DNA from: a virus
Virus record (IMG/VR): IMGVR_UViG_3300019360_000016
Span: 1 to 51,381 of that record
Reading direction: 5' to 3' (one strand)
DNA: 51,381 bases
The notes under the pieces are model-generated. The model was not told the origin of the DNA and made no database searches. It saw only the letters and a program-made list of their open reading frames with translations. The position numbers and the translations under genes are program-made. Positions 2,462 through 26,853 of this stretch are shown here, in pieces; the first letter of the stretch is position 1, and the number at the start of each line of letters is the position of its first letter.

Positions 2462-3432
2462 TAGAGTATGTTCCACAGGTCCTCAATGCGGTATGTCGCA
2501 TCCGACTCCCAGTGCCCGCCGCGAATCGCATCCATGTTGGCGATACCGAGGCGTATGTCCCGGAGTTTCTGCTTGTATTCGTCCGTGAGGAGGCTTACCC
2601 GTTTGAGGTTGCCCTCAGTCCGATGCAGGAATATCGCTGACCGCAGCCCCAGTACAGGCGTGACTGCCCCCAATCCCTCCGGCACAATCTCATAGGTGAG
2701 GGAGGTGATGCTGGGAACGGTGGCCGGGTTGAAATCGAAAACCGGACGCACCTCAATTCGTGGACCGGTTGTGTAGGTGGGAGTGTAGTTGATGATCGGT
2801 CGCGTTTGTGTCGGCCAGAACTTGTACCCGGTCGGATTGTGGGAGGCACCAAGTAGTCTGACCATACTGCCGTAGTAGGCGTTGGGGCGGTAGTCGAAGT
2901 AGCCGACCGTGGGCACCAATCCCGCCGTCTCAAATAGGACGAGGTGGGAGGCATCATTCCCGGTGACTGCTCCGGGGTTAGCCTGTGTGACTAGACACAT
3001 CTCCACATCCCCGTTCTGGATATACTCCAAGGTCATTGTCACCGAACCCCCAGTCCAAATAGGATTGAATGTGAGGTTGGTGCCGTCGAATTGGAACTGG
3101 CTGCCGAACGGATTCTTCCGACTCATATTGAACAGTTCGACCGAAAACCGGCCCGTCACGGGGTCAATAATGCCCAATCGGTAAATGGTCCCAATGTTGG
3201 GCGGCATGAGGTAGGTGTTCGTGTCGTTGGTGACGGCGAAACTGTATTGGACCACAAACGGAATGTCGGAGAGGCGGAGCATTTCTCCGAGCAATTCCCG
3301 GTAGTTAGCTCTGACCACCGGGTACAGCTTGTCGTCTGTATACTTGGCGTTTATTGCAGGCTCATTCGCCCACTGCCGAGTGTAACTGAATACCTGGTTG
3401 AGTTGGCCGGTCGGTTGAACAGTCGTCGCCAT
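2461..3432 (-). CDS. Virion structural protein, probable head-tail connector or adaptor
   Basis: 323 residues starting MATTVQPTGQLNQVFSYTRQ. It combines an N-terminal helical part (about 1-60, including NYRELLGEMLRL) with a beta-rich remainder. It is soluble, with no signal or membrane segment. Downstream of the major capsid protein and upstream of the large nozzle-like gene, it holds the place of T7 tail tubular protein A, although it is longer than that protein (about 200 residues). Function is inferred from gene order only. Confidence 0.7.
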   Translation of the reverse strand: MATTVQPTGQLNQVFSYTRQWANEPAINAKYTDDKLYPVVRANYRELLGEMLRLSDIPFVVQYSFAVTNDTNTYLMPPNIGTIYRLGIIDPVTGRFSVELFNMSRKNPFGSQFQFDGTNLTFNPIWTGGSVTMTLEYIQNGDVEMCLVTQANPGAVTGNDASHLVLFETAGLVPTVGYFDYRPNAYYGSMVRLLGASHNPTGYKFWPTQTRPIINYTPTYTTGPRIEVRPVFDFNPATVPSITSLTYEIVPEGLGAVTPVLGLRSAIFLHRTEGNLKRVSLLTDEYKQKLRDIRLGIANMDAIRGGHWESDATYRIEDLWNIL

Positions 3433-3441
3433 AGTTGAGAC

Positions 3442-3873
3442 TCACAGAAACAATGCCAACTTGTCCCACCGCAAATGGAGACCGCGTTTTTCCCCGGCCC
3501 GCTTCAGGTGTTTTGCCCGGTCCTCCCTATCGCGGGTCCGGTCCTGCCGCTCCATTGCATATCGGTGTAGGCTTTGGTAGTCCTCCGCCGCCTGCTGCTG
3601 CACCCATCGGCGGTGACGGGGACTGCCGATCTCCATGAGGGCAGTCCAATCCGACGGCTTAAATCCGGTCGGAGTGTCTGCGGAGGCTGGTAGTTCTCGA
3701 CCCCTGAACATATCCCGATTCAACCATTCCGCTATGAAGAACTTACCGGTGATGCGACTCTGAATGAGGGTCATTTCCTCGTTGAGGAGCCGCTCCCTTG
3801 CGAGTTCAGCCACAGGGTGGTCGTCCCAAAACCGGTAAAGTTTGGGGTAAAAGGTTCGCGGTCCTGCCACCAT
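3442..3873 (-). CDS. Hypothetical virion-module protein, charged C terminus
   Basis: 143 residues. ATG 3873 overlaps the previous stop as TAATG. The C-terminal half is helical and strongly charged (repeated RxxDRxxDREDR-type residues near 108-122), compatible with a coiled coil or nucleic-acid contact. It lies in the head-tail joining cluster. No family recognised; likely a small head-completion protein. Confidence 0.65.
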   Translation of the reverse strand: MVAGPRTFYPKLYRFWDDHPVAELARERLLNEEMTLIQSRITGKFFIAEWLNRDMFRGRELPASADTPTGFKPSDWTALMEIGSPRHRRWVQQQAAEDYQSLHRYAMERQDRTRDREDRAKHLKRAGEKRGLHLRWDKLALFL

Positions 3874-19457: not shown

Positions 19458-19898
19458 TCACTCCGCCTCGAACGCCCTTAACCCATAGATGGCCGCAACC
19501 GCTCTCGACAAATGACGAACATAGGCCCGGTATGTCTCCGGCTCCGCCCCCAAATCCTCCACCATGTCATGTAGGCGGTTTTGGAGAAAATCCAAGAAGT
19601 ACGCATCCGTCGTGTCTTGCATCCCTAACTCTCTCCTCAACGCCGAATGTAGCATCAAGATTTCGGCGAACGGCTTGTTCTCCATATCCGGCGAGTAAAG
19701 GTCGTCGGGAATTAACTGTCCAGCCGCACACCGAGTCCCATTTGGTCCTCGATACATACATCGAATGTTGTGGTTCAAAGCCATTGTCGCTCGACACCCC
19801 TGCTGCAACAGTCCATCCCTCACAGTTTGCAACCATCCCGACCACCGCTTGGCCCGTTTTGGCGTCAACCTCACATAAAACGTATCCATCGAATCCAT
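19458..19898 (-). CDS. GQLIPD-family phage protein, copy 1
   Basis: 146 residues from ATG 19898 (TGAGGAGTGCA upstream). Shares with 20251-20700 and 22006-22458 the layout: RWxGWLQTVRDGLLQQG near the start, a CMYRGPNGTRCAAGQLIPDD core, LYSPDMEN, and FLDFLQNRLHDMVED near the C terminus. The two core cysteines could bind metal. The same core (CxYRxPxGxKCAxGxLIPD) is familiar from uncharacterised phage and bacterial proteins. Function unknown. Confidence 0.8.
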   Translation of the reverse strand: MDSMDTFYVRLTPKRAKRWSGWLQTVRDGLLQQGCRATMALNHNIRCMYRGPNGTRCAAGQLIPDDLYSPDMENKPFAEILMLHSALRRELGMQDTTDAYFLDFLQNRLHDMVEDLGAEPETYRAYVRHLSRAVAAIYGLRAFEAE

Positions 19899-19930
19899 TG
19901 TTGTGCACTCCTCAAATTGTGTCACCAACC

Positions 19931-20032
19931 TCAAAACAGCGGCAACCCGTAACTCAGTACCACCACCGCATAAAACACAATCACCATCAACCCCGCCGCC
20001 CACATCACATCATTTAACACTCTCTTAGTCAT
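19931..20032 (-). CDS. Membrane micropeptide (33 aa), KRVL type
   Basis: ATG 20032 with AAGGAG upstream, overlapping the previous stop as ATGA. Starts MTKRVLNDVMWAAGLMVIVF and continues hydrophobic: one membrane helix. Its MxKRVL start resembles the 20178-20261 peptide (MSVKRVL), suggesting duplication. Confidence 0.6.
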   Translation of the reverse strand: MTKRVLNDVMWAAGLMVIVFYAVVVLSYGLPLF

Positions 20033-20181: not shown

Positions 20182-20261
20182 ACACACCCCACAATCATCG
20201 TAACCATGAGGATCACCCCCACACCACAAATGACACCAAGCAACACTCTCTTAACCGACAT
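20178..20261 (-). CDS. Membrane micropeptide (27 aa), KRVL type
   Basis: ATG 20261 with GGAG upstream, inside the 3' end of the paralogue gene. MSVKRVLLGVICGVGVILMV and a further hydrophobic stretch: one membrane helix with a basic N terminus. Stop overlaps the next start as ATGA. Confidence 0.6.
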   Translation of the reverse strand: MSVKRVLLGVICGVGVILMVTMIVGCV

Positions 20262-20700
20262 TCGGAAAATACTCCTCTCTAGCCCCAATCTCTAAATCAT
20301 AAACCGCAGCTAACATCCGGCCAGCGGCGTATACACACTCCCGGAATACCACTCCCTCCGCTCTCGTCAATCCATCATGGAGAGGATTTTGGAGGAGGAT
20401 CAGAAACGAGAGGTCCAAATTATCCTTGGCCCCTAAATGCGTAGCCACAGCGGGCCACCTAGTGAATAGGCCACTAAAGAACTCGTTCTCCATTTCCGGA
20501 CGGTAGAGATGGTCCGGAATTAACTGCCCAATACCACACTTACGACCATCCGCAGTGCGATACCGACAACTAATCCCATCATGTGCACTCCTGCCTTGGG
20601 CAATCAATCCCCTAATGATTTGCCGAACCCATCCAGCCCACCGCTCTCGCCGTTCCAAACACAAACACACATGCAATGATTCGACTGGTTCCGTTTCCAT
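20251..20700 (-). CDS. GQLIPD-family phage protein, copy 2
   Basis: 149 residues from ATG 20700 (TGAGGAGTGCA upstream). RWAGWVRQIIRGLIAQG, CRYRTADGRKCGIGQLIPDH, LYRPEMEN and FLILLQNPLHDGL align with copies 1 and 3. An intrinsic terminator ends only a few bases before its ribosome site, so its expression may depend on readthrough. Confidence 0.8.
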   Translation of the reverse strand: METEPVESLHVCLCLERRERWAGWVRQIIRGLIAQGRSAHDGISCRYRTADGRKCGIGQLIPDHLYRPEMENEFFSGLFTRWPAVATHLGAKDNLDLSFLILLQNPLHDGLTRAEGVVFRECVYAAGRMLAAVYDLEIGAREEYFPNVG

Positions 20701-20788: not shown

Positions 20789-22006
20789 CTAGCCCAGAAT
20801 AGTTACCGGGCGTTCGTACTCATCCAACAGCACCCCCACCCGGAAAATGCGATACCTCACTTGGTACACACCCGGAGCCGCATACAAGTGCCGTTTCTCA
20901 CACCTAGTTTCCTCCGAGTACACCGAACATGACCCTGACACATTCCCGTCGCCCCACCAAATCTCGAACCGATCCGGCTCAGGACCGCCACCCGGCACTC
21001 CCGCCCACTCTGTCCAGGGCTGCAACCACACGTAGGTCCCGAGCGGAATCGGGTAAGCATCGGTGTTTACCCGCACACCGCCCCTACTCAGAATGAACCC
21101 CGCCCACGGAGCGGTGAAAACCGGAGCACCCGTATTGCACGGCGTGTACCCCCCCGACGGAGGCCCTTCATCCACAAGCAACGTTTGTGTAACCTTGGTG
21201 GAGCGGCCCAAATCATCACTCACAGTGATGTGTCGCAGAAACGTCTTCCGGTTTCGCAGCCCTCCCGTATCCGCCGTCATGCGGGGCTGGTACAACCACC
21301 GCTGCCCGAACTCCGCCCCGGACGTAAGGCCATTAAACACCCGAATCGGTGATTCCCCATCACACGGCTTGAATCCGATGTTAACCACCGCCCTCATCAA
21401 CTTATCTTCGGGGTCGAAGGGCGTGAATCGAAAATCGCTACCTTGACTCAGACCCCACCATCCCACCGCCACATCCCAATCGAGTGCTTCAGTCCCAGTA
21501 GGGAGTAATGGGCCGTAACTCGTCGCCACCACACTCGGAGACTCATTCCACAACTCCGAAGGGTTGGGGTTCGGGGCCACCGTCACCCGGAACAACAAAT
21601 GCTCCGATCGTCTCCCCCACCCATCTTGGCAACATGTGGCGGTGTATGTTCCCGGTTGGTGGTAGTTGTAGGTGAAAACCGGGTTAGCATTGGGCGTCTG
21701 GTTCCCCACCGAAGCGGCATTGGTCATGGGATCCGTGTCCCCCGAACTCATCGTCCACCGATCGGGTTGACTCGTAATGATCGTCCGACAGGAATCCGCA
21801 AAGTCGAACGTAAACGGCATACCCTGCACTGCACTCAACCGCAGAATCGGCAACGGTCGTGCCGTTTGAGCCGGGTAATCCACGCCCCACACACAGGAAA
21901 ACGGATCATTCGTGATCTGTAACTGCTGCGGCGGCACTCCCTGCGGTAGCGGCGGTCCCGCTTGTGCCATCACCCCCATAAGTACTCCCACAATTCTTGT
22001 ATTCAT
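20789..22006 (-). CDS. Secreted PKD-fold protein encoded in the early block
   Basis: 405 residues from ATG 22006 (GGAG upstream; overlaps the previous stop as TGATG). Residues 1-16 form a signal peptide with a signal peptidase I site after AQA. The mature protein is beta-rich with at least two PKD/Ig-like modules: PVFTYNYHQPGTYTATC (near 110-130) and a C-terminal WWGDGNVSG followed by HLYAAPGVYQVRYRIF. Several Cys suggest disulphides. PKD domains bind proteins or sugars at cell surfaces. An exported early protein could block superinfection or alter the envelope; a virion role is also possible. Confidence 0.8.
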   Translation of the reverse strand: MNTRIVGVLMGVMAQAGPPLPQGVPPQQLQITNDPFSCVWGVDYPAQTARPLPILRLSAVQGMPFTFDFADSCRTIITSQPDRWTMSSGDTDPMTNAASVGNQTPNANPVFTYNYHQPGTYTATCCQDGWGRRSEHLLFRVTVAPNPNPSELWNESPSVVATSYGPLLPTGTEALDWDVAVGWWGLSQGSDFRFTPFDPEDKLMRAVVNIGFKPCDGESPIRVFNGLTSGAEFGQRWLYQPRMTADTGGLRNRKTFLRHITVSDDLGRSTKVTQTLLVDEGPPSGGYTPCNTGAPVFTAPWAGFILSRGGVRVNTDAYPIPLGTYVWLQPWTEWAGVPGGGPEPDRFEIWWGDGNVSGSCSVYSEETRCEKRHLYAAPGVYQVRYRIFRVGVLLDEYERPVTILG

Positions 22007-22458
22007 CACTGGTACTCCTGTAAACTGACAAACTTCACTGGTAGCCCATACACCTGAGCTACCGCAACACCCACATCGTACACCGTTTGCCGAAACTCTT
22101 TAGACCCGCAAACCGATATGGTGTCATGCAATCTCGACTGCATCATGTCCAGAAACGTCGTGTCCTGTTCGGTTTTACACCCCAACGCCGTTTTCACTTC
22201 GGGCCAAAGACACAAGACGTTAGCTATTGATTGGCCTTCCATTTGCCCACTATACAGGTGGTCTGGAATGAGTTGTCCGGCGGCACATTTATTGTTGCCT
22301 GCCCGGTAATAACATCGTCGAACCCCGAAATCATCCTCGCCCAACGCTGGTCGTCTTTGGTGGAGCAACCCATTCACCATATTCGTCAACCATCCACCCC
22401 ACCGAACCTTCGTCTCTGCATCCGGAATCAATCCGGCCAATCCCGCCGTGTGATCCAT
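22006..22458 (-). CDS. GQLIPD-family phage protein, copy 3
   Basis: 150 residues from ATG 22458 with AAGGA upstream. RWGGWLTNMVNGLLHQ, CYYRAGNNKCAAGQLIPDH, LYSGQMEGQ and FLDMMQSRLHDTI match copies 1 and 2. It is the first of the three to be transcribed, just after the 269-residue gene. Confidence 0.8.
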   Translation of the reverse strand: MDHTAGLAGLIPDAETKVRWGGWLTNMVNGLLHQRRPALGEDDFGVRRCYYRAGNNKCAAGQLIPDHLYSGQMEGQSIANVLCLWPEVKTALGCKTEQDTTFLDMMQSRLHDTISVCGSKEFRQTVYDVGVAVAQVYGLPVKFVSLQEYQ

Positions 22459-22511
22459 GACACTATCCTTCTGTTGAAGCCGGGTACAACTCTCCCGGTC
22501 CGAACCACCAC

Positions 22512-23321
22512 TTAACCACCTGTACCATAACAACTACCCACCACACCAAGCAGAGCGGCATGAGCGTCTGCGACTATCGGCACTAGCGGGTAAGGCTCAA
22601 TCAATCCCTTGGCCCGCAATGAATCGACATACAGGTATTGCACAGAATACAACGCGGAGGCAGAGTATATGAGTTTGGCCTCAGCTAAAGCCGTATCACT
22701 TTCCACAATGAACTGTAGCCAGTCACGAGGTGTTAGTTTTTCCCCGGTCCGAACACGGATATAAGCCGTACACAATTGATACACCAAGCTGCTCAACAAG
22801 GACTGGTCGTGGTGTCGGTGCCACGTTTCCCAGTCGAAGTTTATCGTGATCTTCTGCCACATATCCACCGTGGCCGATTCGTGGATTGCTTCGGGATGCT
22901 TTCGTGTCTTGAGCATTTTCTCAAAGTCTTGAACGTGAATCCAAGCCATTGTTCTCCAGTAGTACAGAGGGGAGGAAACATCCCAGCCCCGACCCAAGCC
23001 GAGTTTCTGTCGAGCCGGCGTGGGCATGATGTATCGGTATGGGATTCGCACCGACCCCTGGTCTTGTGGGGAATCCTGAACCATCGAGTTGTAAACGGCG
23101 GGACTGTGATCCGGATTGTATCCCTGTTTCCCCGTCTCCCTCTGGAACATCTCCCACAACATCGTCGGCCAATACTCCTCACATAGCTTCCAAGAGGAGG
23201 TGATGTTCCGTGCCGCCAACCATTCCCGCCACCCCGACACAAGTAGGCCCCGCTTCGTCCCATCCGAATGGGCTTGGTCCAATCGTCGGATGTGGAACAA
23301 GTAGATAATATCACTGGTCAT
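22512..23321 (-). CDS. Hypothetical protein downstream of the conjugation cassette
   Basis: 269 residues from ATG 23321, with GGAG upstream and an ATGA overlap with the previous gene. Trp/Tyr/His-rich and mainly helical (SGWREWLAARNITSSWKLCE; WETWHRHHDQSLLSSLVYQL). No motif recognised. It continues the overlapping chain that begins with the ubiquitin-like gene, so it may be a target, adaptor or unrelated passenger. Confidence 0.72.
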   Translation of the reverse strand: MTSDIIYLFHIRRLDQAHSDGTKRGLLVSGWREWLAARNITSSWKLCEEYWPTMLWEMFQRETGKQGYNPDHSPAVYNSMVQDSPQDQGSVRIPYRYIMPTPARQKLGLGRGWDVSSPLYYWRTMAWIHVQDFEKMLKTRKHPEAIHESATVDMWQKITINFDWETWHRHHDQSLLSSLVYQLCTAYIRVRTGEKLTPRDWLQFIVESDTALAEAKLIYSASALYSVQYLYVDSLRAKGLIEPYPLVPIVADAHAALLGVVGSCYGTGG

Positions 23322-23736: not shown

Positions 23737-24440
23737 TATCGGTCTCCGTGCAGGGAGAACTGACACTCGGCCTCCAACATCCCATCGTGGACCTTCACCG
23801 GTAGGGCGGACCCCCTCAACCAGTGAGCGTAACACTCCACCGCCCGACTTCCCGCTTTGGCGGCGGTGTAATACGTTGCCTGAGCCGTACACGGAGCGGC
23901 GTAAGCTTTGTGTTGTGGGAACCACTCCGACAAGTAGTGGTCGTAACGTTCCTGATCGGTGATCGGAATAGTGACTCCCGTTTCCAGGCCCATCCGAGTA
24001 TCCACCAAGAATTGCGGTTTCCGTTTTCGGGCCCACAACGAGGTAACAATCAACCTCCGTGCTTCCATGTTGTCAACACACAGGAACACAGCGGCAGTGG
24101 CGGGTATCAACTTCAACCGATCCGCCGTCATCATCTCCGGCAGACACACCACCTTCACCTCCGGATTCCGGTTTCGCAGATCGTGACTCAGGGCTTGCAC
24201 CTTGGGTTGTCCCAAATCCCCATGAAACCAACCCTGGGTTCCCAAGTTCTCTAACGCCACCGTGTCTCCGTCCACCAATGTAATGCGGTTCACGCCCATT
24301 GACACAAGAAGTCGGGCGATCATGGCTCCGATTGCCCCCGTTCCAATCACCGCCACCGGGTGACTGTTCAACAGATCGGGTGGCAGCACTCCGGAAAACC
24401 GGGCCGCTCTCGCCTCAGCCAATAAGGAGGGGGCTTTCAT
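23736..24440 (-). CDS. E1-like (ThiF/UBA) activating enzyme
   Basis: 234 residues. Adenylation (Rossmann) domain: VIGTGAIGAM (nucleotide loop, G33/G35/G38), LVDGDTVALENLG (D57, D59), LGQPK (K80) and FLCVDNMEARR (D123). A candidate catalytic cysteine is C184 in APCTAQATYYTAAKAGS, the position used by small ThiF-type E1 proteins. The usual NLxRQ is NLGTQ. It would adenylate the C terminus of a ubiquitin-like protein, encoded three genes upstream. The start overlaps the JAMM gene by 26 bases, with GGAG upstream. Confidence 0.9.
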   Translation of the reverse strand: MKAPSLLAEARAARFSGVLPPDLLNSHPVAVIGTGAIGAMIARLLVSMGVNRITLVDGDTVALENLGTQGWFHGDLGQPKVQALSHDLRNRNPEVKVVCLPEMMTADRLKLIPATAAVFLCVDNMEARRLIVTSLWARKRKPQFLVDTRMGLETGVTIPITDQERYDHYLSEWFPQHKAYAAPCTAQATYYTAAKAGSRAVECYAHWLRGSALPVKVHDGMLEAECQFSLHGDR

Positions 24441-25281
24441 CTATCTTCTCCAGACAAAGAGGTGTATCCTTGACCAAACCGGACAGTTCTCCGGTTGCCG
24501 CAAACTTCACCAACTCACCACCACTTAACCACCGCCCACCACCCTTGGTGCTGGGCAACTCCACAAACAGGAGTTTCTTCCAGTGCTTCACATCACGAGC
24601 CCTGCCGAGCGGAGCATATTTATCCCGCCGCCCGTCGTAAATACACAGCACTCCGTTTTGATTGATGAACGGCAAATGCATAGCCACCCTGTGTCCGATC
24701 AACGATTCCGACCACGACTTCGCGGTTTCCGTTTTCGGCCACACCTTGGGGCGAACATTAGCCGAATACAATCTCTCCAACTGTTGATCCAAGTCGGCGG
24801 GCACACCGTAGGGGGGAGCCATGTCGAACAAAAACGGAATGGTCTGCTCCAACCGCAGGCCCCGAATTGTGGATTGCACCTTGGCGTAAGTATCTCCGCC
24901 CCGTGCTGCAATCGCCATCACCGCCCAATCAAACAATCCGAACGTTTCCCGAAACACCGCCTCATCTTGGCCGGACGGATGAGCGCTGGTGCCGGGGTGA
25001 CTATGTATCCACACCCTCATGAATTGGCGTGCCTCCCACCCCGCCCCTTCCCACACCTCCAAAATATCCTGAAGGCTGGACGGGCAAAACTCTGTCCATG
25101 CCGGCTCATCGAATTGTACCGGCACAATCAGATCAGTGACCACCAAGCTCTCCGGGTCCGGCGTTACCCCCAACACCGATACCTCAGTCGGCCCTCTCCT
25201 CATCAACCACTGTAACTTCAACCACGCCAGGGGTTTCAGCACCACCTGTGTTGGCGGTTTCTGGGGTCTTGTCTCCGTCAT
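24415..25281 (-). CDS. JAMM/MPN+ metallopeptidase (ubiquitin-like deconjugase)
   Basis: 288 residues. All JAMM residues are present: E33 in PTEVSVLG, H93 and H95 in WIHSHPG, S103 and D106 in HPSGQD (HxH then ten residues then D). Residues 1-160 are the JAB domain; the rest is a second domain (GHRVAMHLPFINQNGVLCIY; KKLLFVELPSTKGGG), as in PRTRC protein A-like proteins. It should cleave isopeptide bonds or trim the ubiquitin-like C terminus, in the cytoplasm. Start has AAAAGGAG upstream and lies 98 bases inside the previous gene. Confidence 0.92.
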   Translation of the reverse strand: MTETRPQKPPTQVVLKPLAWLKLQWLMRRGPTEVSVLGVTPDPESLVVTDLIVPVQFDEPAWTEFCPSSLQDILEVWEGAGWEARQFMRVWIHSHPGTSAHPSGQDEAVFRETFGLFDWAVMAIAARGGDTYAKVQSTIRGLRLEQTIPFLFDMAPPYGVPADLDQQLERLYSANVRPKVWPKTETAKSWSESLIGHRVAMHLPFINQNGVLCIYDGRRDKYAPLGRARDVKHWKKLLFVELPSTKGGGRWLSGGELVKFAATGELSGLVKDTPLCLEKIDESPLLIG

Positions 25282-26380
25282 GTTTTCTCCTTTTCGTTTT
25301 CGGATTACACTTCACACAGCAACCCTCACTACCCATGTGGGTTGGACAAAAGGACAGGCGGCATTTCTTACATACCCCGCCCAAATTGTGCTTAGGACAC
25401 ACCGTTTTCCCGCAATATCGGCCAGTGGGGGTTCCCACGGCGCAACTAGCTTTATGATAGGTGCTGATAGTTCGTGCCACACACACCCGACAGAACCCCG
25501 CCTCCGGACCCCTCGCCTCCACCACACAAACCGGACAGACATACGGATTCGCTGAAACCGGGCTCAACGGAACTGCGGCCCGACAATGAAGACAATCCGA
25601 CCGGCAACCCGCACACTTAGGCGTATTCATATCCCGGTGGTAGGGCTTGAAGCAGACGTTGCACACTTCCCCCTTCTCATCCCAAAACGCCATGCTTTTG
25701 ATGTGCCGCCCAGTCATATCATGCTGATGTAGGTAGTCCCACAACACACTGAACGCTTCCGGAACATCTTGGTGGCGAAGGGCTCTTTCATACGGCATTT
25801 CCGCTCCACCCAAACACGGCTTGAACCATCCCTCCATTATTGTCCACTGTTCCTGCCACTGAGGGGCTGCCTCGTGAGGATGCAAAATGTGGGGCGAAAT
25901 CTGCTGCTGCAAATCCGCATACCGATGCGGCGACCTATCTCCGAACACCCTAAACAACGGCTGGGCATTCTGATTCAACCGCCACAACCAAAACGGAATC
26001 ATCACTCGAAACTGCCCCAACCTCACCGGATCATCTCCCACATAGCCCGGTACTGGTGGGTCCACCGGCAGGGATACCATCGGGGTGTCAATCCATACCC
26101 GCTGAATGCCCCCCCTTGAATCTGCTCCCCACTCTCCACCCGGAATACACGTCGCCAAGGCCAATATCAATGCGTCGGGATTCTCATACAGCTTGTAGGG
26201 CACACGCCGCGATGCCCCTGTCATGCCGAACTCCGAGTTGGCGATGTGCTCTGCGGCTACTGTATCCGCCAACTCAGCCCACTCCAAAAACATTTCCTTC
26301 GTCAGTCGTCGTTGCTCCTCCTCTGTCGGCGTGCGGCACATGTACATCCACAACTTGGTGACAACTTCCTCTCTCGTCAT
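25184..26380 (-). CDS. Possible E2-like domain fused to cysteine-rich (RING/ribbon-like) zinc domain
   Basis: 398 residues from ATG 26380 (GAGGAG upstream). Residues 1-235: helical start, then beta strands (FRVMIPFWLW), SPHILHPHE (162-170) and a solitary Cys in FKPCLGG (C189), the order expected of divergent bacterial E2 (UBC) folds: His-Pro-His, then a catalytic Cys followed by helices. Residues 240-358 hold 19 Cys, mostly in CxxC pairs (CNVC, CAGC, CLHC, CPVC, CRVC, CKKC, CVKC) plus CPKH and CPTH, which suggests several treble-clef or ribbon zinc sites. A charged tail follows. Zinc binding is clear; E2 and E3-like roles are inference from pattern and operon. Confidence 0.75.
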   Translation of the reverse strand: MTREEVVTKLWMYMCRTPTEEEQRRLTKEMFLEWAELADTVAAEHIANSEFGMTGASRRVPYKLYENPDALILALATCIPGGEWGADSRGGIQRVWIDTPMVSLPVDPPVPGYVGDDPVRLGQFRVMIPFWLWRLNQNAQPLFRVFGDRSPHRYADLQQQISPHILHPHEAAPQWQEQWTIMEGWFKPCLGGAEMPYERALRHQDVPEAFSVLWDYLHQHDMTGRHIKSMAFWDEKGEVCNVCFKPYHRDMNTPKCAGCRSDCLHCRAAVPLSPVSANPYVCPVCVVEARGPEAGFCRVCVARTISTYHKASCAVGTPTGRYCGKTVCPKHNLGGVCKKCRLSFCPTHMGSEGCCVKCNPKTKRRKHDGDKTPETANTGGAETPGVVEVTVVDEERAD

Positions 26381-26475
26381 GTCTGTCTCCTCAAAACTAA
26401 GCGGCATAGAGCTATCACCGCACTTGTATCCCGCAGACACTCACAAGCTCCTTAAACGGTGCTCGCGGCATTCTC

Positions 26476-26721
26476 TCAGGCCCCCGCCACGTTCGCCGGA
26501 GCCACCCCGATCCGGCTACCGTCCTGCACCGTCGTCCGGGCGGCTTCCTCAGCATCAACCGTTCGGCGACTCCCATCCGGGGCCGTCAACCGAATCGTAA
26601 CCTTGGTGGAGGGATTGCTGCCGATCTGCCGCTCCACAATCTCCTTCACCGTGGTCCCTTCCGGGACCTCCAACTCCACAACCTGCCCCTCTCCAAACGG
26701 GGAACTAAACTTGATCTGCAT
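26476..26721 (-). CDS. Ubiquitin-like (beta-grasp) modifier
   Basis: 81 residues from ATG 26721 (GGAG seven bases upstream; another ATG at 26733). Secondary structure pattern fits a beta-grasp: MQIKFSSP, a second strand VVELEVP, helix TVKEIVERQI, strand KVTIRLTAPDG, and a final VQDGSRIGVAP strand. It ends ANVAGA; removal of the last Ala would leave a C-terminal Gly. First gene of the cassette, upstream of the E2/zinc, JAMM and E1-like genes, as expected for the modifier. Confidence 0.8.
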   Translation of the reverse strand: MQIKFSSPFGEGQVVELEVPEGTTVKEIVERQIGSNPSTKVTIRLTAPDGSRRTVDAEEAARTTVQDGSRIGVAPANVAGA

Positions 26722-26853
26722 AGCTTTCTCCATGAAGAAAAATACCCTTGTTCCCGAAACCGGCCACAGATTGAGGAGTGTTTCCTCGTTCTGGTGGGGG
26801 ACATTTTCCCTTTGGCGGCATCGGTCACGTTCCTGGGACCTACACCGGCCCCA

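Follow-up and report, generated by a model that had tools for sequence, protein, structure and literature searches.

The phage genome described here carries four nearly touching genes on its minus strand that encode, in order, a ubiquitin-like protein (Ubl), an E2-like protein with a cysteine array fused to it, a JAB peptidase, and a ThiF-type E1. Judging from sequence comparisons and structural models, we put at about 0.62 the probability that these genes form a phage-encoded ubiquitin-like conjugation cascade, with the array on the E2 serving as a zinc adaptor or E3-like tail in cis. The window, that is, the whole stretch of DNA analysed, is the complete IMG/VR record IMGVR_UViG_3300019360_000016 (51,381 bases); it is recognisable as a phage genome by genes for a terminase, a DNA polymerase, and a D5-type primase. 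Coordinates are given in Table 1.

Table 1. Features of the putative conjugation operon and the basis on which each was placed
Feature	Coordinates	Strand	Basis
Ubl, 85 aa, C-terminus ..ANVAGA	26476..26733	-	window-free profile match
Ubl C-terminal VAGA, predicted processing/activation site	26479..26490	-	last codons before stop; aligned with relatives' ends
E2 + Cys-array protein, operon gene 2, 418 aa from GTG	25184..26440	-	translation
E2 (UBC-like) core, residues ~113-235 (398-aa numbering)	25676..26044	-	hhalign; model fold matches
His-Pro-His, 167-169 (398-aa form) = 187-189 (418-aa form)	25874..25882	-	invariant H, P
Predicted catalytic Cys, C189 (398-aa form) = C209 (418-aa form)	25814..25816	-	invariant column
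Cys array first half, C-x2-C-x12-C-x2-C-x3-C-x2-C-x15-C-x2-C	25526..25663	-	RING/FYVE-like spacing
Cys array second half, 11 Cys, CPKH + CPTH pairs	25307..25492	-	translation; CKKCRLSFCPTH unit
JAB/JAMM metallopeptidase, 288 aa	24415..25281	-	Pfam Prok-JAB; metal-site residues
JAMM metal-binding motif HSHP..SGQD	24964..25005	-	alignment of JAB proteins
ThiF-type E1-like adenylating enzyme, 234 aa	23736..24440	-	Pfam ThiF
Predicted E1 catalytic Cys, C184 in APCTAQAT	23889..23891	-	Cys column of aligned E1s

We envisage that the JAB peptidase would cut the Ubl precursor close to the C-terminal glycine; it may also remove the Ubl from its targets afterwards. The ThiF-type E1 would adenylate the Ubl and hold it on C184, from which it would pass to C209 of the E2 (C189 in the shorter form) and then be moved onto a lysine of some host or phage protein. 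The predicted zinc-type array, being fused to the E2, would act in cis as a substrate adaptor or E3-like module, so that a separate E3 gene would not be needed. What the sequence itself establishes is the presence and order of the four genes, the fusion, and the conservation of active-site residues; zinc binding, the enzymatic steps, what the array does, and the targets are inferred.

A first-pass annotation, made from the DNA letters, had described the second gene of the operon as an E2-like domain apparently fused to a RING/ribbon-like array. The details of its motifs are borne out by translation: positions 26380-25184 on the minus strand yield 398 residues, with His-Pro-His at 167-169, a lone C189 in FKPCLGG, and 19 cysteines at 240-358. 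The frame is open back to a GTG at 26440, which would give 418 residues, with HPH at 187-189, C209, and the cysteine array at 260-378. Since a Shine-Dalgarno-like sequence precedes both candidate starts (AAGGAG before the GTG at 26440, GAGGAG before the ATG at 26380), both numberings are kept here, C189 being the same residue as C209.

The annotation had also asked whether C189 is conserved in homologues, and it is. H167, P168, C189, G191, and L217 are invariant in all 19 rows of an alignment of the window protein with 18 relatives. Among 44 distinct phage and MAG E2s (E≤1e-3), about half of which had served in building the profile, the Cys is kept in 44, a Gly two positions after it in 43, and His-Pro in 41. 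Classical E2s carry an HPN motif, with Asn third. That Asn is absent from the window E2, which has His at this position, as do 35 of the 44 proteins (Asn occurs in 1 of 44). As far as motifs go, HPH instead of HPN lowers the claim to the label "classical E2" and not the case for E2-like working.

Individually, the E2-array protein is hard to place: its one Pfam match, to SWIB, was weak and fell short of the cut-off, and PHROGs, NCBIfam, and PADLOC yielded no match. A profile built from 23 relatives, with the window excluded, ranked the window E2 first among the window's 288 ORFs, at E=0.0015 against 1.1 for the runner-up; this HMMER match, taken alone, is weak and is split by an insertion between HPH and the Cys. 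When the window was aligned with 21 phage E2 cores by hhalign, the probability was 90% (E 1.5e-6), compared with 0.1% for a control in which the window E2 was set against the JAB family. Of the E2 family profile's 73 matches in PDB, 57 of the best 60 were named E2 enzymes, with the Cys and His-Pro aligned in the printed alignments, every match lying at E≥0.084 (best 0.084). Pfam UQ_con matched 3 of 21 family members, with a best E of 0.0049.

A fold comparison of the N-terminal half, also suggested by the annotation, gave E2/UEV/RWD matches over the domain, but from a low-confidence model. AlphaFold modelled the window protein poorly (pLDDT 50, pTM 0.38), with strands and then helices just after C189; of its 50 VIA rows, 28 lay over the domain, 27 of them E2, UEV, or RWD by title and one a SEAC chain. 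We discounted 18 rows on the N-terminal helices, which were to unrelated proteins, and four Mediator rows, at about 20 Å. The model of a relative, from the locus labelled L124, was more confident, with a pLDDT of 66 that rose to 80-90 over much of the core; 48 of its 50 VIA rows were E2 or RWD by title, with Z up to 7.0. Plain Foldseek searches against PDB with both models, and against BFVD with the L124 model, returned no match at E≤0.001. A Z below 8 would not by itself prove the fold, and the E2 fold rests mostly on the agreement of all lines. On the strength of relatedness, with Z modest and the window model of low confidence, we assign the window protein to the E2/UBC superfamily; the conserved Cys and His-Pro, the profile match, the fold matches, and the operon context all support the E2-like domain proposed earlier. 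The neighbouring Ubl, JAB, and E1 genes, which the annotation had not used, change the weight of the E2 finding.

For the Ubl, a profile of 26 phage Ubls with the window left out picked the window protein at E=4.6e-7, the best of 288 window ORFs (next 0.46); a Pfam scan of the window Ubl alone gave nothing above cut-off. The family of 27, with the window included, matched SAMP2 in PDB at 6.4e-12, and also ubiquitin, MoaD, and ThiS. We therefore class the 85-aa protein, by profile and C-terminal Gly, as a predicted ubiquitin-like beta-grasp protein. The tails of its relatives mostly end in KGG, KGA, RGG, or AGA with a few residues more, an arrangement that suggests trimming of the Ubl C-terminus by the JAB protein, and the window's ..AGA aligns at this place. 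The window JAB scored 27.4 bits against Pfam Prok-JAB (cut-off 25), and its metal-site residues E33, H93, H95, S103, and D106 are invariant in 14 of 14 aligned rows. The window E1 scored 94.9 bits against Pfam ThiF (cut-off 28.1). At the Cys column of APCTAQAT, 38 of 42 E1s (from E2-bearing loci plus the window) have Cys, three others have a Cys within two positions, and one has a gap.

The 19 cysteines of the array lie at 240, 243, 256, 259, 263, 266, 282, 285, 297, 300, 313, 323, 328, 337, 340, 345, 354, 355, and 358 (398-aa numbering). They form nine Cxx(C/H) pairs; 2,000 shuffles of this tail averaged 2.7, and not one gave as many as nine. The first eight (240-300) fit a loose RING/FYVE cross-brace expression, which 43 of 5,000 shuffled tails fit too. 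The strict C3HC4 expression is absent from the window array and present in the tails of L117 and L124; ligand orders other than C3HC4 were covered by the loose expression only. Neither profile-library nor structure searches gave a significant RING match to the window array. With phmmer against PDB, the best match of the array was a FYVE domain, at E=0.12. FYVE fingers have a basic R(R/K)HHCR signature. It is absent from the translated window protein, and the FYVE likeness is one of spacing only. The array part of the window model is mostly at pLDDT <50, and weak FYVE-, PHD-, and Rim2-zinc-finger Foldseek rows for L124 (E 2-4) were not taken as proof. The second half of the array holds CKKCRLSFCPTH, and such units occur seven times in L117 and six times in L124. 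Of the annotated E2-ligase fusion, the link between an E2 and an array of cysteines thus holds good and is also found in other phages; the RING/E3 part is at most putative, given the lack of strict C3HC4 spacing and of a significant RING match.

Among relatives, the number of cysteines after the E2 motif ranges from 0 to 41. Several (L082, L093, L105, L114, and L130) have no Cys-rich tail, which means that proteins of the E2 family can do without the array. On an E1 tree, the window groups with the array-bearing loci L117, L021, and L124 (support 97/78, not starred, on a long branch). Array-bearing loci are clustered on this tree, with tail labels assigned by the author from the Cys-tail survey of the loci: seven changes were counted, against a shuffled mean of 11.4, and 1 of 500 shuffles was as low. 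Compared across these sequences, the cysteine array is a real, recurrent, and variable attachment to the E2. In L124, the Ubl and the array-bearing E2 flank a separate 284-aa ORF with 19 Cys (2868-3722), a possible stand-alone zinc partner.

How widely is the operon distributed? Searches with the window E2 as a single sequence found nothing in phages, plasmids, or IMG/VR; likewise, the window JAB had no match in phages, and the window E1 alone had none in IMG/VR. Relatives of the operon were reached only via E1 alignments, which gave 70 and then 63 IMG/VR loci (overlapping sets); a primase-based search gave three loci. In many IMG/VR loci, the four genes share a strand and follow one another as Ubl, E2, JAB, E1. 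All four components were found in 25 of the 63 loci, three in 11, E1 plus one other in 10, and E1 alone in 17, some of which lie at contig ends. The figure of 25 of 63 is descriptive and no independent test, since JAB calls relied on the motif alone and some of these loci had also contributed to the E2 and Ubl profiles. E2 profile matches were present in 38 of the 63. When bacterial and archaeal genomes were scanned, 80 loci were retained. Six of these had an E2, all on MAG contigs that are possibly phage derived; seven more had a Ubl match and no E2, five of the seven ending alike in APMQGG (ThiS-like), and the remaining 67 had neither match.

Several of the E2-like proteins are unusual in form. 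Beside ThiF, Xanthomonas phage PhiXhv-12 and Erwinia phage Ep032 (L008 2298-5672; L006) encode a protein of 892 aa that combines an HPHM..CLG E2-like core with Cys clusters. At L114 6661-8823 and L100 2674-4608, two adjoining genes each match the E2 profile, perhaps as an E2 pair. An E2-like protein with 30 Cys is encoded at L153 2-1507, on a 3.3-kb contig binned as Shapirobacteria.

It is conceivable that the cascade is real and that the array is simply a zinc module that binds nucleic acids or proteins, or adds stability, without acting like an E3. In favour of this, the array varies between relatives and is missing from some; the lack of strict RING spacing and of a significant RING match in the window points the same way, as does the operon's strand, which is shared with the primase, with exonuclease, Sak4-like, and polymerase genes further up. 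We consider this somewhat unlikely, however, given that the array is attached to the E2 itself in array-bearing loci (L124 having a separate Cys-rich ORF in addition) and that these loci cluster on the E1 tree. An adaptor or E3-like role for the predicted zinc-type array seems to us the most likely one, given its fusion to the E2 and the lack of any other recognisable E3 gene.

The remaining alternatives touch the chemistry itself. A ThiF-like E1 and a Ubl whose family also matches ThiS and MoaD could form a sulfur-carrier system, supplying sulfur for a metabolite or tRNA after maturation of the carrier by the JAB protein. What makes this improbable is the presence in the same operon of an E2 with an invariant Cys, together with the E2 matches in more than half of the 63 relatives; moreover, the window proteins that were scanned included neither a recognisable rhodanese nor any recognisable product of a sulfur-metabolism gene. 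More improbable still is a catalytically dead scaffold of the UEV/RWD type, an idea that draws on the UEV and RWD domains among the fold matches but would have to accommodate retention of the Cys in every one of the 44 distinct proteins and of the following Gly in all but one. We return, then, to the conjugation cascade and to how it compares with known systems.

The NCBIfam PRTRC models matched none of 21 phage E2 cores or 27 Ubls, and the window E1 scored 34.7 bits against PRTRC_ThiF, far under the cut-off of 144.75; on these grounds, we do not assign the phage set to the PRTRC system, which we take to be bacterial operon type 6d. Type 6d comprises a Ub-like protein, a JAB protein, an E1-like protein, an E2-like protein, and a helical protein (Iyer et al. 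2006, PMC1779556). By that account, it resembles the phage set in having the same four activities as separate neighbouring genes and a small Ubl with a C-terminal glycine, whereas its E2s are described without the classical His and with one after the Cys, and the phage proteins have His-Pro before the Cys. The same source, where it treats the lambda/T1 tail-assembly genes, lists TAPI (Ub-like) and TAPK (JAB); these too are a phage-encoded Ubl and JAB, but they are tail genes, and no E1 or E2 is described there.

As described in PMC5654768, Caldiarchaeum subterraneum has a set of ubiquitin, E1, E2, small RING (srfp), and Rpn11. Compact genes, JAMM trimming of the precursor, and a zinc E3-like part are common features; the RING is separate there, whereas the phage Cys array (a putative RING) is fused to the E2. 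For the CBASS Cap2/Cap3 system, PMC10097602 reports conjugation via a C-terminal glycine or alanine, as the phage VAGA end would also allow. Both CBASS and the Bil/ISG15-like defence, which is named in the review PMC10952713, share with the phage set E1, E2, and JAB chemistry and a bacterium-phage setting. However, they are bacterial anti-phage systems, and Cap2 holds E1 and E2 in one protein, unlike the separate, phage-encoded enzymes here. The window E2 and Ubl had no match among the PADLOC CBASS type II and Bil models, and we do not count the phage set among these systems; the ThiF part of the E1 reached 59 bits, and JAB matches were weak. Of two other papers, PMC11354881 is a review, and the words ubiquitin, ThiF, and JAB do not occur in PMC7886860. 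In the open-access literature searched, we found no description of a phage-encoded Ubl-E2-JAB-E1 set.

Bacterial ubiquitin-like conjugation has so far been discussed mainly as bacterial defence. If phages carry a complete cascade, this would be a reversal, a takeover or counter-defence by tagging, and it would bring independent E2s that have their own zinc modules to bear on how E2-E3 relays arose. One can go further and imagine that several unrelated phage lineages, including crAss-like gut phages, carry complete Ubl conjugation that tags proteins in infection, that the window lineage merges E2 and E3-like functions, and that the crAss-like Ubl is first made as part of a longer precursor, at its head, and is then freed by the JAB protein. 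This wider picture we offer tentatively, as a possibility.

CrAss-like phages may carry a distant version of the set, for which the sequence evidence is suggestive only. L005 (1359-5726), L007 (2054-5732), and many IMG/VR loci, including L024-L054, encode in this order a Ubl-like head with an extension, an HSH..PC(T/L)G protein, a JAB protein, and ThiF, near primase and uracil-DNA glycosylase genes. The heads end in ..(K/R)SGA or alike, and then the extension follows; all 15 aligned heads keep Ser-Gly (21 heads listed), and all 14 aligned E2-like proteins keep HSH, Cys, and Gly. Comparison with the phage families by hhalign gave 43% (P 2.5e-4) for the Ubl head and 33% (P 4.7e-4) for the E2-like protein, versus 0.2 and 0.3% for controls, and the HMMER Ubl profile matched the crAss upstream proteins weakly (best 0.00064, in a set of 21). 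PDB searches with the crAss Ubl-like and E2-like profiles brought up no Ubl and no E2, which counts against the crAss extension. A full-protein MAFFT alignment that included crAss and jumbo-phage proteins was dropped since the active sites were misaligned. As crAss001 is cultured and appears to have a distant version, the idea is directly testable.

Elsewhere on the minus strand of the window, three paralogues (19461-20003, 20254-20700, and 22009-22533) have RWxGWL...GQLIPDxLY...ME in common and are 38-40% identical to the first; one matches phrog_17693, of unknown function. Near the operon, a 406-aa protein (20789-22009, minus strand) shows weak PKD-domain matches.
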